Source: Chloroflexota bacterium (lineage in GTDB: Bacteria > Chloroflexota > Limnocylindria > Limnocylindrales > CSP1-4). Taken from it: a stretch of 41,553 nucleotides of DNA. The DNA is taken from the NCBI GenBank assembly GCA_017881915.1, contig JADGQK010000017.1, forward strand, positions 1 to 41,553, read 5' to 3'. Below the pieces are notes generated by a model. That model had not been told where the DNA came from, made no database searches, and saw only the letters and a list, made by a program, of their open reading frames with translations. A program made the translations under genes and the position numbers. Position 1 is the stretch's first letter. Each line of letters starts with the position of its first letter. This document shows positions 14,742 through 22,055 of the stretch, piece by piece.

Positions 14742-15694
14742 CGGGTCGACGCCGGCGGGTTCATCTCGCGCGGGGCTCGCCGGCCGCGCTCGTCGGAGCC
14801 GATCGGCCCGATCGCCTCGAGCAACCGGATCCACTCGCCCACCGCCAGGGTCTGCGGCCGCCGGTCCGGGTCAATCCCGGCGTCCGCCAGGGCCGCGGCG
14901 ATCCGGTCAGCCGGCAGAGGCAGCTGCCGCGTGAGGACGTTGTGGATCATCTTGCGCCGCTCGCGGAAGGCGGCCTGGACGAGCCGCCACAGGGCGTCCT
15001 CGGTGGGCGGGTCGAGGCGATCGTCCTCGGCGAACGGCTCGATCACGATCACAGCCGAGTCGACCGCGGGGGCTGGCTCGAATGCCCCAGGCGGGACGCG
15101 CAGCGCGATCCGAACGGTCGCGTGGTACTGGACGAAGACGGACAGGTAGCTCAGCCCGCCGGGCTTCGCCGCGATTCGTTCGGCCACCTCGCGCTGGACC
15201 ATCAGGACGAGGCGCCCGGGCCGGGGCGGTTCGCCCAGGAGCCGGTGCAGGATCGGGCTGGTGATGTGGTAGGGCAGGTTGGCCACGACGTCGTACGGCT
15301 CGGGCAGGAGCCGGGTGAGCGGCTGGTCGAGCGCATCGCCTTCGATCAGGCGGAGCGATCCCGGGCTGCGGGGACCGCCCGGGGCCTGACCAGGCGGCCG
15401 AGCGAGGGCAGCGGAGAAGCGATCGCGCAGGACGGCGGCGAGGCCAGGATCGATCTCGACGGCCGTGACCGTTGCCCCTGCCGCGATCAGGCCGTCGGTC
15501 AGGAAGCCGAGGCCCGGCCCGATCTCGAGGACGTTCTGCCCTGGTCGTGGCTGCGCTTCGGCCAGGATCGCCTCGAGGACATCGACATCAACCAGGAAGT
15601 TCTGGCTGAGCGAGTGGCGGGCGCGCAGGCCCGACTGGCGCAGCGTCCGGCGGATGGCCGCAGGATCGAGGCGGGCCGAGCTCGGCGGGCTCAC
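14738..15694 (-). CDS. rsmA: 16S rRNA (adenine1518-N6/1519-N6) dimethyltransferase
   Basis: GLRARHSLSQNFLVDVDVLEAI; VLEIGPGLGFLTDGLI; VVANLPYHITSPIL. GTG start overlapping the tsaD stop (GTGA). Confidence 0.94.
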   Translation of the reverse strand: MSPPSSARLDPAAIRRTLRQSGLRARHSLSQNFLVDVDVLEAILAEAQPRPGQNVLEIGPGLGFLTDGLIAAGATVTAVEIDPGLAAVLRDRFSAALARPPGQAPGGPRSPGSLRLIEGDALDQPLTRLLPEPYDVVANLPYHITSPILHRLLGEPPRPGRLVLMVQREVAERIAAKPGGLSYLSVFVQYHATVRIALRVPPGAFEPAPAVDSAVIVIEPFAEDDRLDPPTEDALWRLVQAAFRERRKMIHNVLTRQLPLPADRIAAALADAGIDPDRRPQTLAVGEWIRLLEAIGPIGSDERGRRAPREMNPPASTR

Positions 15695-16758
15695 CGGGCA
15701 GCCAGTGGCAGGTTCGGCCGCGCGTCCAGGTCCAGGCCGGCCCGGGCACCGGCCACGAACCGGCGGCAGCCGGCCGCGCCGATCATCGCTCCGTTGTCGG
15801 TGCACAGGCCCGGACGCGGCACGTGGAGTGGCAGGCCGAGGGCGGCCGCCTCGTCGGCGAGGCGCCCGGCCAGGACCCGGTTGGCGGCGACCCCGCCGCC
15901 GACGACGATCGAGCGGGCGCCGATCGCCCGGGCCGCCCGGGCCGTCTTGCGGGCAAGGACGTCGATCACCGCGTCCTGGAAGCCCCAGGCGAGCTCGGCC
16001 ACGACGGCCTCGGGGAGCAGCCCCCCGGGCTCGTCGCCCGGCAGGCCCGCCTCGGCCCGGGCTGCATCGATGATCCGGCGGGCGGCAGTCTTGAGGCCGC
16101 TGAAGCTGAAGTCGTAGCTGTCACCAAGCCAGGCTCGCGGAAAGGCGACACTGCGATGTGTCGCGCCGGATGCCGCCTGCATGATCGCGGGACCGCCTGG
16201 GTAACCCAGCCCGAGCATCCGGCCGACCTTGTCGAACGCCTCGCCGGCCGCGTCGTCGACCGTCTCACCGAGCAGGCGGTAGTCACCGTGATCACGCATC
16301 TCGGCCAGGAACGTGTGGCCACCCGAGACGACCAGGGCAACCAGCGGGAAGACAGGTTCGGGGTGGTCGTCCTCACCGGGATCGAGCAACCAGGCCGCTT
16401 CCACGTGGCCATCGAGGTGGTTGACCGGCACGAGCGGCTTGCCCCGAACGTAGGCCACCGCCTTGGCGAAGTTCAGCCCGACGAGGAGCGAGCCGGCCAG
16501 GCCCGGACCATGGGTCACCGCGACTGCGTCCACCTCGGACCAGGCCACCCCGGCATCCTCCCAGGCGGCCTCCAGGACGGGCACGATCCAGCGCAGGTGG
16601 GCCCGCGCGGCGACCTCGGGCACGATCCCGCCGGTCGCGGCATGGAGGGCCACCTGGCTGGCGACCACGTTGGCGTGGATCCGGCGACCGCCCTCGACCA
16701 GGGCGATTCCGGTCTCGTCACAGCTCGATTCGATCGCCAGCACGAGCGGGCCGTTCAT
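15691..16758 (-). CDS. tsaD: tRNA threonylcarbamoyladenosine (t6A) biosynthesis protein TsaD
   Basis: VLAIESSCDETGIALVEGG; VTHGPGLAGSLLVGLNFAKAVAY; PVNHLDGHVEAAWL; GGGVAANR. Confidence 0.97.
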   Translation of the reverse strand: MNGPLVLAIESSCDETGIALVEGGRRIHANVVASQVALHAATGGIVPEVAARAHLRWIVPVLEAAWEDAGVAWSEVDAVAVTHGPGLAGSLLVGLNFAKAVAYVRGKPLVPVNHLDGHVEAAWLLDPGEDDHPEPVFPLVALVVSGGHTFLAEMRDHGDYRLLGETVDDAAGEAFDKVGRMLGLGYPGGPAIMQAASGATHRSVAFPRAWLGDSYDFSFSGLKTAARRIIDAARAEAGLPGDEPGGLLPEAVVAELAWGFQDAVIDVLARKTARAARAIGARSIVVGGGVAANRVLAGRLADEAAALGLPLHVPRPGLCTDNGAMIGAAGCRRFVAGARAGLDLDARPNLPLAAR

Positions 16759-17330
16759 GCCCCGCGATCCGTCCCCGGGCGGGGCGGCGGCTCGACCCTG
16801 ACTGGTTCCGCCACGCTCGCCAGCGCGCCCCGCCGCTCTGCCAGGCGGGCCACCATCTCCGGCGAGCGGAGCGGCTCGGTGGTCATGATCAGGGCATCCT
16901 CGCTGTTGTCGCTGTAGTAGCGCGGTCGGATCCCGACCGGCCGGAAGCCGAACTTCTCGTACAACCGGCGAGCCGGCAGGTTCGACAGGCGGACCTCGAG
17001 GGTTGCCTCGGTCGCCCGCCGGTCAAGGGCGATGTCCAGGATCGCCACCAGGAGCCGCTCGGCGAGGTGGTTGCGGCGCCAGGCCGGGGCAATCGCGAAG
17101 GTGGTCACATGGGCCTCGTCCACCATCAGCCACAGGCCCGCAAAGCCGGCGACCTCGTCGCCGACCCGGACGACGAGGTAATGGGCGAGCTTGTTCGTCT
17201 CGAGCTCGGTCCGGTAGGCATTCGCCGGCCAGGGCGCCGAGAAGGCCGCCCGCTCGATCACCTGGACGGCCGGAAGGTCGTCGAGCCCCATCGGCTCGAC
17301 GGCGATCCTCAGCGGGGGTCGCGCGACCAC
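16755..17330 (-). CDS. rimI: [ribosomal protein S18]-alanine N-acetyltransferase-like GNAT protein
   Basis: GNAT pattern DDLPAVQVIERAAFSAPWPANAYRTELE..., APAWRRNHLAERLL, NLPARRLYEKFGFRPVGIRPRYYSDNSEDALIM; lies between tsaB and tsaD. The exact start is uncertain. Confidence 0.88.
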   Translation of the reverse strand: MVARPPLRIAVEPMGLDDLPAVQVIERAAFSAPWPANAYRTELETNKLAHYLVVRVGDEVAGFAGLWLMVDEAHVTTFAIAPAWRRNHLAERLLVAILDIALDRRATEATLEVRLSNLPARRLYEKFGFRPVGIRPRYYSDNSEDALIMTTEPLRSPEMVARLAERRGALASVAEPVRVEPPPRPGTDRGA

Positions 17331-18007
17331 TCGATCGAACCGCTCAGGACCCCTACGCCGCGGGGCAGGCTGACGTACTCCGGTACGAGCCGGGCGAGGT
17401 CATCGGCCTCACCGGCCGCCAGTCGGGCGGCGCCGAGCCGGAGGAGCGTGGCGCCGAGCCGGGTGCGCGCCGCCTGTCCGCGGACCAGCGCGTCGGCCGG
17501 CGCTCGTCCGTCGAGATCCAGCGCCACCAGCTCGACGTCCTGGGTGAGCTTGGGCTCGCTGCCGGCCGGCACGAGCCGTGGGCCATTCTCGTCGACGAGG
17601 ATGCGGTCGCGCGGACCGGCCGGCAACAGGAGGACGCGGCGCCGGGCAACATCCGGTGGCAAGTCGGAATCAGCGACGCTGACCGGCGCGAGCAGGGCGG
17701 CCGAGGTCGGGATCCCGATGATCGGGATCGCCATGGCCTGGGCCAGACCCTTCGCCGTCGCAAGCCCGACGCGCAGCCCGGTAAACGCGCCCGGGCCAGT
17801 GCCCACGACGATTCCGCCCAGCATGTCAAGCCGGACGCCGAGGCGCTGGAGCAGGCCATCGAGTGCGGTCAGGAGCTCCTCGCCATGGCGCTGGCCGGCC
17901 GGCCAGGCCGCGACCTCCGCCCGGCCGCCGGGGCGTTCGAGCGCGACGACGATCTGGCTCGTCGCGGTGTCGATCGCGAGCAGGGGCCCACGTCCGGCGC
18001 TGGTCAC
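17309..18007 (-). CDS. tsaB: t6A biosynthesis protein TsaB
   Basis: LLAIDTATSQIVVALE; VVGTGPGAFTGLRVGLATAKGLA. GTG start at 18007 overlapping the tsaE stop. Confidence 0.92.
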   Translation of the reverse strand: MTSAGRGPLLAIDTATSQIVVALERPGGRAEVAAWPAGQRHGEELLTALDGLLQRLGVRLDMLGGIVVGTGPGAFTGLRVGLATAKGLAQAMAIPIIGIPTSAALLAPVSVADSDLPPDVARRRVLLLPAGPRDRILVDENGPRLVPAGSEPKLTQDVELVALDLDGRAPADALVRGQAARTRLGATLLRLGAARLAAGEADDLARLVPEYVSLPRGVGVLSGSIEWSRDPR

Positions 18008-18483
18008 GGGACGGCATCCAGGTAGCGCTCGAAGTCCGCCTCGGTCGCCGTCAGGCAGATCGTCCTGGGCTCGTCCGCGCCGCCGACGATCACGATGTCG
18101 AGGCGGGCCGCCGGCAGGGCCGGGCCGAGGCGCTCGGCCCATTCGACCAGGCTGACGCCGGCGGCCTGACGCTGATCGAGGAGTCCCTCGGCCAGCACAT
18201 CGCTGGCGTCGTCGAGGCGGTACAGATCAAGGTGGAACAGCGGCAGGCGGCCTTCGTACTCGGCCATCAGCACGTAGCTCGGCGAGTTGATCGTGGCCGT
18301 CACGCCGAGACCGGCGCCAAACCCCTTGGCCAGCTGCGTCTTCCCGGCGCCGAGCTCACCGTGCAGCGCGATCAGGTCGCCCGGACGGGCGGCCGAGGCG
18401 AGGGCGGCGGCGAGGGCGCGGGTCGCCTCGGGCGAGGCCGAAAGGACCCGACGCTCGGTGACCCCCGGACGAGTGACTGGCAT
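18004..18483 (-). CDS. tsaE: t6A biosynthesis ATPase TsaE
   Basis: Walker A GELGAGKTQLAKGFGAGLG; INSPSYVLMAEYEGRLPLFHLDLYRL. Confidence 0.94.
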   Translation of the reverse strand: MPVTRPGVTERRVLSASPEATRALAAALASAARPGDLIALHGELGAGKTQLAKGFGAGLGVTATINSPSYVLMAEYEGRLPLFHLDLYRLDDASDVLAEGLLDQRQAAGVSLVEWAERLGPALPAARLDIVIVGGADEPRTICLTATEADFERYLDAVP

Positions 18484-18524: not shown

Positions 18525-19556
18525 TCAGCTGAACCGCTCGAGGTCGGGGATCGGCACGATCACGATTCCGCCATCGTCAAGCTCGACCGTACCGGCCTCG
18601 AGCTGGACCCCCGCCGGGAAGCGCCGGCGCCCCACCGATCCCCGCCAGCGGCCCTCGCGACCGGCCAGCTCGCCGTGGCGGATGCGGACCCAATCGGGCG
18701 CGACCCCCGGACGGTCGAGCGGCGGGTCCACGACAAGCAGCGGCGGATCCGACACGATCCCCACTTCGCGCCCATCGAGGCGCTCGAAAAGCACCAGGAG
18801 CGGTGTCGCGATCGGCCGCCGAAACGTACCGTCCAGGACGAGGACGGCAAAGGGTGCGAGCGCCTGGAGGCTGGCCCGCTGGCGCGCCTCGGATGCGACG
18901 AGGTCGCGCAGGTCCTTGCCGGCCAGGCCCGGCACGACGATCCCGCGGACGCCCATCGCCCGGGCCCGGCTGATCGTCTCCGAGTCGAGCCGACCGCCGA
19001 CGACCAGGATTGCGCCGGCACGTCCGACATCGAGGCTGCCTCGCAGGCCTGCCTCGCCGGTCACCAGCTCCAGCCGCCCACGGGTGGGGCCGCCGGCCGC
19101 GAAAGCCCCGGGGACCCCGTAGCCGGCGAGGGAGATCCCGATCCCGCGACCGGGCACCACCTCGCGGACGATCCCGGCCGCCGGCGCCTCGAGGAGCTCG
19201 GTGTGCTCACCGCTCACGACCTGCCAGCGGCCGGCCTCGGCCATCAGCACTTCGCCCGGGGCGGTCCGTGGCCGGCGGCGGCGAAGCACCGCACCCGATT
19301 CATGGCCGTCGCCGGCCCACCAGTCGCCCGGGGACAGCCCGGCGGCGGCATCACCGGGATCCGCCAGCGTCGGCGGGCCAACCTCGAGCCGGGGATCCCG
19401 ACGGCGCTCGGCCAGGCTCAACCCGGCCGTGACCGGCTCGCCCGCCCCGACCAGGATCCGATCGCCGGGCCCAAGCTCGAACCAGGTCGTCGGGGCCGGG
19501 ATGACCAGGGGCCGGCTGGGCACGGCCCAGACCGACATCGGCTCGATCTCAGACAT
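18525..19556 (-). CDS. uncharacterised partner of the MutL-like protein; barrel-sandwich-like segment plus C-terminal KOW-like segment (inferred)
   Basis: Start overlaps the mutL-like stop by 8 nt (ATGTCTGA). Segments LLEAPAAGIVREVVPGRGIGISLAG, GAILVVGGRLDSETISRARAMGVRGIVVPGLAGKDLRDL, and VRIRHGELAGREGRWRGSV...LEAGTVELDDGGIVIVPIPDLERF. Confidence 0.85.
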   Translation of the reverse strand: MSEIEPMSVWAVPSRPLVIPAPTTWFELGPGDRILVGAGEPVTAGLSLAERRRDPRLEVGPPTLADPGDAAAGLSPGDWWAGDGHESGAVLRRRRPRTAPGEVLMAEAGRWQVVSGEHTELLEAPAAGIVREVVPGRGIGISLAGYGVPGAFAAGGPTRGRLELVTGEAGLRGSLDVGRAGAILVVGGRLDSETISRARAMGVRGIVVPGLAGKDLRDLVASEARQRASLQALAPFAVLVLDGTFRRPIATPLLVLFERLDGREVGIVSDPPLLVVDPPLDRPGVAPDWVRIRHGELAGREGRWRGSVGRRRFPAGVQLEAGTVELDDGGIVIVPIPDLERFS

Positions 19557-21144
19557 CGAGACCCGGCCATAGTGCCGCCTGCCAGGCGCCGAGCAGCGCC
19601 CGGCGCCGATCGAGCCGGTCGGGCAGACGCAGCGGGACATCGCGCAGGTCGACCAGCAGACCCCCGAGGCCCCCGCCGACCTCGATGCGGGCGTGCCGGG
19701 CTCGCGATCCGAGGTTGACCTGGTCGCGGAAGCGGAACTCGGCGATCCCCAGTTGGCCCGGCGGCAGGTCGACCAGCTGGAGGCCGCCGGGGACGAGGTC
19801 GATCTCGCTCGACCCCGACTCGCCGTGGATCACCAGCCGCCCGGCGCTCTTGCCCGCCCGCAGGCCGGCCGGGGTCACCACCGTCCCGAGTGGGACGAGC
19901 AGGTCCTCGGCCAGCTCGGCCAGCAGCGCCCGGCGCTCGACCTGGTCATCAATCATCCCGATCGGGCCAAGCAGCCGGGCGTGATCCCAGGCCAGTTGGC
20001 TGGCGCCGGGCCGGCGGACCACGTCGGCCAGGGCCAGGGCGATCGCCGGGCCAGGCGCCACGGCCCACGCCCCGCCCGCAACCACGATCAGGTCCGGGGC
20101 GGGCAGCCCGCTGATGTCGGGAGTCGCGGCGACCAGGCGTTCCAGGGCGGCCCGGGCCGCCGCATGACGGACGACCGCACCGGCCCCGTGCGCCTCGCCC
20201 CACGGGGTGAGGCGCAGCTCGCGCAGGCGATCGCGCATCCGGTGGCGATCGAGTGGGATCGACGACCAGGCGAGAACGCCGTCGACCAGTCCATCATCGG
20301 GCTCGCCGGGTGGAGCGAGGGCGGCCACCTCGACGAAGGCCGGCGACGCCTCCAGGCCATCTGGGGCTGCGAGGACGCGAAGCCCGCCGGTCAGCCCGAT
20401 CTCGACCAGCTCGACCCGCCGGTCGAGGACCGTCGCGAGGTCGGTCGTGGCCCGGACGAGAGCGTGACGGCCGTCGCCTGAACCGGGATGGATGGCGTCC
20501 AGGAGACGGCGCAGGCCGGCTCCGGGTGGATCGCCGGCGGTCGCTGCCGGGCCGTACGGCGGCGGGGCGCCATCGGCATCCGTGGCAAAGCGGCCGGTTT
20601 CGGTCCGGAGCAGGCCGGCGAGCACGAGCGGCCGGGTCGGATCCCGACCGGACAGGGCGGCGCCGAGCGTGGCCAGGGCGGCCACCGCCGGTTTCGGATC
20701 GAGAGCCGGCGACTCCCCGGCGGCGAGGATGACGGCCGCGACGTCACGCTCCAGGGCGAGCCGGGCGAGGGCCACCGGCTCGGAGGCTTCGAGGCTCAGG
20801 CCGTTCGCTCGCCAGCCGGCCGTCCCGGCCAGCCGCTCGACAGCGGCTCGCTCGCGCTCGCTCGTGGCCAGGATCGCCAGGCGCGGCGACTCGGTCGTTC
20901 GGGCGACGAGCCGGGGGGTCGCGGCGAACGATGACGGCCCAAGGCCGAGCTCTGCAGCAAGGCCCGCGTCGACCTCGACGAGCCGGGCAACGAGGCTGGC
21001 CAGGATGTCGTCCGGGTCGCTCCCGGCGGGTGCCGCTTCGGCCACCACCAGGCGCCACCGGCGATTGATCCGGCCGAGCACGGCGACCGCCGAGGTCGCC
21101 GACCCGAGGTCGAGCGTGAACAGGGCGCGCGGGTCGCTCGTCAC
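19549..21144 (-). CDS. glutamate mutase MutL/GlmL-type ASKHA ATPase homologue
   Basis: N-terminal phosphate-1-like FTLDLGSATSAVAVLG; IVVAGGAWAVAPGPAIALALADVVRRPG; C-terminal VPLGTVVTPAGL...VGGGLGGLLVDLRDVPLRLPDRLDRRRALLGAWQAAL. GTG start. Confidence 0.75.
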   Translation of the reverse strand: MTSDPRALFTLDLGSATSAVAVLGRINRRWRLVVAEAAPAGSDPDDILASLVARLVEVDAGLAAELGLGPSSFAATPRLVARTTESPRLAILATSERERAAVERLAGTAGWRANGLSLEASEPVALARLALERDVAAVILAAGESPALDPKPAVAALATLGAALSGRDPTRPLVLAGLLRTETGRFATDADGAPPPYGPAATAGDPPGAGLRRLLDAIHPGSGDGRHALVRATTDLATVLDRRVELVEIGLTGGLRVLAAPDGLEASPAFVEVAALAPPGEPDDGLVDGVLAWSSIPLDRHRMRDRLRELRLTPWGEAHGAGAVVRHAAARAALERLVAATPDISGLPAPDLIVVAGGAWAVAPGPAIALALADVVRRPGASQLAWDHARLLGPIGMIDDQVERRALLAELAEDLLVPLGTVVTPAGLRAGKSAGRLVIHGESGSSEIDLVPGGLQLVDLPPGQLGIAEFRFRDQVNLGSRARHARIEVGGGLGGLLVDLRDVPLRLPDRLDRRRALLGAWQAALWPGLDV

Positions 21145-21222: not shown

Positions 21223-21513
21223 TCAGGCGTCGAGGGTGTCGTCCTCGTCCCATTCCTCGAGCCGCTCGATCAGCTGCTCGATTCCGATGTCATCGGCCAG
21301 CAACTCGGTCGCCGAGCTGACCTCGCCGCCGAACAGGCCGTGGAGGATGGGATCGAAGAAGAGCATGGCGTTGCTGCCCAGCGGCCGGTATGGCCGGCTG
21401 GCGTTGAGGAAGTGGACGGCCGGAGCGGCCAGTCCGCGCAGGTGGATCTCGCGGGCGACGCGGTCGACAAGCTCGTCACGTTGCTCCTCGGTCCGGTCGG
21501 GCGGCAGCATCAT
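21223..21513 (-). CDS. conserved-looking 96-aa hypothetical protein
   Basis: ORF with ATGA overlap to the macro-domain gene; EIHLRGLAAPAVHFLNASRPYRPLGSNAMLFFDPILHGLFGGEV...IEQLIERLEEWDED. Confidence 0.75.
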   Translation of the reverse strand: MMLPPDRTEEQRDELVDRVAREIHLRGLAAPAVHFLNASRPYRPLGSNAMLFFDPILHGLFGGEVSSATELLADDIGIEQLIERLEEWDEDDTLDA

Positions 21514-22055
21514 CGGCCGTCTCCCCCATCCGGCCCGGCGGCGGAAGCAACCTCGACCGCGTTCAGGGCCGCCTGGAAGGCCGCGTACGGGGCGGCCCCG
21601 CGCAGGGCGAAGGTCAGCACCTCAATCGCGGGCGAGCGCGCCAGCTCGTCACGCACCGTGGCCAGCGTGATCTGGGCCGCCTCGTCGAGCGGATAGCCAC
21701 CGACGCCAGTGCCGAGGGCCGGGAAGGCGATGCTGGTCACGTTGTTCTCACGAGCCCGGGCCATGGCGCTCCGGACGGCCTCTTCGATGGCGATTGCGCT
21801 CGTCCCCCGGTCGCGGTCCAGCGATACGGCGTGAATGATCATCCGGGCGGCCAGCGTGCCGGCCGGGGTCACGACCGCCTGGCCCAGCCCGAGCGGGCCC
21901 TGGCGGACCGCGGCAAACTCGATCGCGTCACCGCCGACCCGCTTGATCGCCCCGCCGACCCCCGTCGCCATCCACAGGCTGGGGTTCGCCGGGTTGACGA
22001 TCGCGTCGACCTCCAGGTCGCAGATGTCCCCGTTCCAGAGCTGAATCCGAGCCAC
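21510..22055 (-). CDS. macro domain (ADP-ribose/O-acetyl-ADP-ribose-binding) protein
   Basis: IQLWNGDICDLEVDAIVNPANPSLWMATGVGGAIKRVGG; AFPALGTGVGGYPLDEAAQ. GTG start preceded by SD GGTGGAGGG. Confidence 0.92.
   Translation of the reverse strand: MARIQLWNGDICDLEVDAIVNPANPSLWMATGVGGAIKRVGGDAIEFAAVRQGPLGLGQAVVTPAGTLAARMIIHAVSLDRDRGTSAIAIEEAVRSAMARARENNVTSIAFPALGTGVGGYPLDEAAQITLATVRDELARSPAIEVLTFALRGAAPYAAFQAALNAVEVASAAGPDGGDGR

Follow-up and report, generated by a model that had tools for sequence, protein, structure and literature searches.

The window, by which we mean the whole 41,553-nucleotide stretch of Chloroflexota DNA that was analysed, contains two overlapping genes that encode a GlmL/MutL-like ASKHA protein (P0002) and a partner protein (P0001). 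The pair and its neighbours are arranged as follows:

15691-18483, minus strand: tsaE, tsaB, rimI and tsaD (t6A genes), identified by Pfam matches and not counted in the module
18525-19556, minus strand: P0001, the partner, 343 aa
19549-19556, minus strand: 8-nt overlap ATGTCTGA, where the start of P0001 lies over the stop of P0002
19549-21144, minus strand: P0002, GlmL/MutL-like ASKHA protein, 531 aa, GTG start
21223-21513, minus strand: P0003, a 96-aa soluble protein and third module member, whose family also heads a seven-gene locus in distant Chloroflexota
21510-22055: macro-domain protein gene, coupled to the P0003 gene by ATGA

Both open reading frames of the pair and their 8-nt overlap were found on the minus strand where the original prediction had placed them. 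The P0003 gene lies 78 nt before that of P0002 and shares an ATGA overlap with the macro-domain gene upstream; at the other end, tsaE starts 41 nt past the P0001 gene on the same strand. The trio sits within a same-strand run, and no sigma-70-like promoter sites belonging to the pair were found, so the candidate promoter formerly assigned to it lacks support. Rfam returned no structured-RNA match between positions 15000 and 25000. All three genes are under purifying selection: compared with a congener (G002), dN/dS is ~0.13 for P0002 (dN 0.055, dS 0.42), ~0.10 for P0001 (0.049 and 0.51) and ~0.02 for P0003. Because these ratios are low and both P0002 and P0001 are kept in relatives at 25-92% identity, the two are genuine genes and not chance open reading frames. 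Neither has a Pfam or NCBIfam match on its own, even at E<10.

The AF2 model of P0002 (pLDDT 91.9, pTM 0.92) confidently predicts an ASKHA (actin/Hsp70-type two-domain) fold. Foldseek returned 141 PDB matches at E<=0.001 for this model; each of the 50 highest-ranked entries listed is an ASKHA protein or has an ASKHA domain. The best of them include a hydantoinase-type enzyme, PilM, glycerol kinase, FtsA and a 2-hydroxyacyl-CoA dehydratase activator; with TM scores of 0.2-0.3 normalised to the query, and with kinases, hydantoinases and corrinoid reactivators among the matches, the resemblance is at the level of the superfamily. Residues 1 to ~415 make up the ASKHA core, and residues ~417-531 form a C-terminal beta domain specific to the pair. 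A MutL-like C-terminus had been proposed, but the match to GlmL covers only residues 1 to ~415; true GlmL has no counterpart of the final ~115 residues. True GlmLs end near profile position 460 of 582 and pair-type proteins run to ~579, so the C-terminal extension is a pair-type feature. The ASKHA part is thus a divergent branch of a known family, not a new fold.

The core carries a phosphate-1 loop (LDLGSATS, residues ~11-18), an altered phosphate-2 region (VEIGLTGGLRV, ~246-256) and an adenosine-type motif (VVAGGAW). As anticipated, an ASKHA phosphate motif is present at the N-terminus, with D12 and G14 near-invariant; the Asp and Gly of phosphate-1 are kept and its Thr-Lys is lost. Where GlmL has the phosphate-2 loop DVGGATTD, P0002 has EIGLTGGLR, and the window's family consistently follows the pattern E/D-I/V-G-x-x-[GA]-[GA]-x-R; all 38 sequences compared share R256. 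In proteins of a sister family, f2, that fuse the pair, both phosphate loops are degraded and phosphate-2 is lost. Since phosphate-2 is altered in P0002 and lost in the fusions, a scaffold is favoured over a reactivating ATPase. Many proteins outside the window's order keep a near-canonical phosphate-2 loop; the prediction that ATPase activity was lost is therefore confined to this lineage and does not extend to the subfamily at large, and activity may persist in relatives outside the order.

P0001 is laid out as an N-terminal beta/barrel-sandwich-like region, a central alpha/beta swivel-like domain and a C-terminal KOW/SH3-like domain (AF2 model pLDDT 87.7, pTM 0.83). The model has no global Foldseek match below E=0.001; KOW matches appear, none of them below that value. 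The barrel-sandwich (BSH) and KOW-like segments first noted by inspection are supported in relatives of the partner, of which 5 of 25 match RnfC_N (best 3e-6) and 8 of 25 match KOW at E<=1 (best 5.6e-5), the BSH matches being weak, present in some relatives only and absent from P0001 itself. Profile searches with the partner reached Spt5 at 1.3e-4 and RNA polymerase beta' at 5e-5; the latter value is summed over several weak stretches of the N-terminus and was taken to reflect a shared barrel-sandwich fold only. A PA-domain reading of the central domain was set aside as too weak (ZNRF3, Foldseek E 0.01, rmsd ~16 A), and a phage origin of the partner was rejected after no match was found among 50,697 phage records. 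Whereas segments of the relatives match the RnfC_N/NqrA_N barrel-sandwich (3e-6) and the KOW domain of Spt5, NusG and L24 (6e-5), P0001 scores against none of these families, and its combination of BSH, central alpha/beta and KOW parts corresponds to no described family, in line with the original prediction.

The two genes are tightly linked. The partner is present in 49 of 61 near-relative genomes, and a survey of neighbourhoods found a GlmL-like gene beside it in all 30 relative loci fetched and in 48/48 named loci from a narrow-alignment GTDB scan, titled Chloroflexi, Chloroflexota or Limnocylindrales bar one Thermoleophilia label and one Anaerolinea. Of 251 Chloroflexota genomes sampled, 151 have the GlmL-like protein and 151 the partner; 142 genomes, more than half, have both, nine have the GlmL-like protein alone, nine the partner alone and 91 neither (Fisher p=1.7e-46, a value that ignores phylogeny). 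Two of the nine partner-only genomes belong to family f2, in which the fused protein escapes the GlmL model. In this family, with genomes of ~1.1 Mb, the pair is one polypeptide of ~590-640 aa in the four loci that were read. In the Chloroflexales-like families f16, f25, f53 and f57 the pair genes are unlinked, yet both persist. At four Chloroflexales-like loci (L240-L243) the unlinked partner gene precedes the F0F1 ATP synthase operon and adjoins a gene for a receiver-domain protein with a C-terminal part resembling, by its sequence, a Roadblock/LC7 domain; in three of the four it also adjoins a GAF/histidine kinase gene, and an MreB-like gene follows. We drew no clear meaning from this proximity to the ATP synthase operon.

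Clustering of neighbouring genes, combined with profile searches, revealed a larger locus in relatives, with the order small protein, DUF6754 protein (c26), membrane protein (c24), zinc-ribbon/tryptophan-repeat protein (c23), membrane protein (c25), GlmL-like protein, partner. By Kyte-Doolittle analysis, c24 and c25 have ~6 predicted transmembrane segments each, and c26 and c23 have two. The full seven-gene order is present at L085-L088 and L090, from distant Chloroflexota families, and at L048, from the window's own class; L096, L173 and L177 have the same order with the small protein not detected, and at L092, L094, L097, L098, L100 and L165 only the adjacent partner is missing from it. Of the 251 Chloroflexota genomes, 55 encode DUF6754, and all 55 are positive for the GlmL-like protein. 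In single-sequence phmmer searches, counterparts of P0003 were found just upstream of DUF6754 (L088, 3.6e-12; L085, 2e-10; L048, 1.1e-5). The proposal of a dedicated two-gene module thus stands as to its dedication and conservation, but not as to its size: a third gene, that of the 96-aa P0003, starting at position 21513, lies upstream, and the full locus in relatives has seven genes. The window's genome lacks DUF6754, and no repeat protein was observed close to the pair in the window's family. With P0003 and the pair kept and DUF6754 absent, the window therefore retains both ends of the locus without its middle. Because L048, of the same class, still has the middle genes, the membrane genes were probably lost in the window's lineage.

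Several further features of these loci were observed. Most of the repeat proteins contain 5-59 copies of the motif [LIVMA]PxWL against <1 expected; the c23 zinc-ribbon membrane proteins of L092, L094, L097, L098, L100 and L085 reach up to 59, with <1 in shuffled sequences. The motif resembles DIPPFL, the peptide at the C-terminus of FtsZ in this phylum, and the GlmL-like protein of L100 has two copies in its own tail. At L083, L081 and L093 a zinc-ribbon, tryptophan-motif protein with little similarity to c23 is encoded directly upstream of the GlmL-like gene, without DUF6754. Most loci of the window's family, and L088 as well, have a macro-domain gene in the vicinity of the pair.

The matches to GlmL suggest a chaperone or reactivase, in which the ASKHA protein would use ATP to reactivate or load a radical enzyme such as a B12-dependent mutase, and the partner would serve as adaptor. 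Pair-type proteins share the ASKHA core and phosphate-1 motif with GlmL/MutL (PF13941, NF040745; glutamate mutase accessory), and divergent relatives match PF13941 (up to E=3.2e-68, L085) and the NCBIfam GlmL models (best 1.2e-28); 12 of 29 also match the GlmL-related ornithine degradation protein Or-4 (NF040744) at E<=0.01, the best at 5e-27. The predicted fold of P0002 resembles the dehydratase activator and corrinoid reactivators, and the BSH segment of the partner could in principle shuttle a group. Against this, P0002 itself matches neither PF13941 nor the GlmL models, the pair type differs from GlmL/MutL in its ~115-aa C-terminal beta extension, its linked partner and the absence of mutase genes nearby, and the motifs for ATP are altered or lost. 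The lack of a mutase in the window, noted at the outset, extends to the genome, which is 92% complete and yielded 0 candidates for GlmE (PF06368). The genome has three B12-binding ORFs, none of OraE size, and no ornithine-degradation genes were recognised. One of the three is a short mutase-type subunit followed by an ORF that reads as its own MeaB-type GTPase, an arrangement typical of what a methylmalonyl-CoA-type mutase would show. Genome G223 provides a decisive natural control against a mutase-accessory role. There, one locus (L160, G223:C1:1237000-1252000) encodes a complete methylaspartate pathway, with GlmE, GlmL, GlmS, methylaspartate ammonia-lyase and a fumarase-like protein (PF06368 1e-224, PF13941 4.6e-159) and without the partner, and a second, separate locus carries the pair with the membrane cluster. 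In a midpoint-rooted tree, which gives no relative age, four GlmL-type proteins group together with 100/100 support, and every pair-type protein falls outside their group. On the absence of GlmE, the G223 control and this split, the link to glutamate mutase was rejected: the pair is not a glutamate-mutase accessory, and we regard the chaperone or reactivase reading in general as quite unlikely. To call P0002 an orphan is misleading, as the protein belongs to a distinct subfamily that spans the phylum and has a conserved locus of its own, and is not a GlmL bereft of its mutase in this genome. The pair, then, is conserved, does not track a mutase and includes a partner of no characterised family.

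The KOW-like domain, resembling those of Spt5, NusG and L24, could instead point to a factor in translation or associated with RNA, with the partner binding rRNA, tRNA or RNA polymerase under regulation by the ASKHA protein. Consistent with such a factor, the t6A genes tsaE-tsaB-rimI-tsaD follow on the same strand, and in some other families argS and a D-aminoacyl-tRNA deacylase, recognised by eye, are near the locus. The t6A synteny is restricted to the window's class, however, KOW domains also bind proteins, and the conserved cluster elsewhere consists of membrane proteins; we give this role a minor share of the probability. The FtsA fold match and the abundance of FtsZ-tail-like [LIVMA]PxWL motifs in most repeat proteins could alternatively mark the ASKHA protein as an FtsA-like cell-division receptor that recognises the tryptophan motifs of the cluster's repeat protein. 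This seems very improbable: the likeness to the FtsZ tail is a short motif only, and neither DUF6754 in the window's genome nor the repeat protein near the pair in the window's family was found. Replacement of FtsA by a P0002-type protein was rejected, since FtsA, a separate gene near FtsZ, is present in 30/30 genomes tested and needs no replacement.

Taken together, the data lead us to favour, tentatively, a reading in which the pair and P0003 form the cytoplasmic part of a Chloroflexota-specific assembly, with the ASKHA protein acting mainly as a scaffold and with docking at the membrane in many lineages. The GlmL-like protein would use its ASKHA fold in a manner comparable to PilM or FtsA and would form an obligate complex with the barrel-sandwich/KOW partner, which it holds. 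Many lineages would have this complex docked on a membrane complex of DUF6754, the two ~6-TM proteins and the zinc-ribbon/tryptophan-repeat protein; the window's family would have lost the membrane subunits and retained the soluble core. As the window's genome lacks DUF6754, membrane docking cannot be transferred to it. The predicted P0002 fold matches the ASKHA membrane scaffolds PilM and FtsA (Foldseek E 5e-7 to 5e-5), and a membrane-protein cluster adjoining the GlmL-like gene in relatives is a trait shared with them; P0002 differs in having no detectable sequence relationship to either, low global TM and different partners, and a PDB profile search with the GlmL-like protein found no PilM or FtsA chain.

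The module is undescribed in the libraries searched and larger than first noted, and we found no paper on DUF6754 or PF13941, nor any on the GlmL-like subfamily of the pair. It is possible, and we suggest it with more reserve than the assembly itself, that the seven-gene locus encodes a previously unrecognised envelope-associated machine of Chloroflexota; in the window's family its soluble core of three proteins would have persisted after the membrane part was lost, changing from an ATPase to a scaffold. Cultured Chloroflexales seem to be among the families that have the full cluster, and deletion or tagging may therefore be feasible. Because pair-type proteins match models named GlmL/MutL, they may be wrongly assigned to a metabolism absent from these genomes; recognising that they form a mutase-free subfamily found across the phylum, with a partner tightly linked to it, corrects this misfiling and defines a conserved, uncharacterised locus. 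The fusion, the lineage with a soluble core only and the graded change of the ATP site together amount to a natural experiment in the possible conversion of an ASKHA protein into a scaffold.
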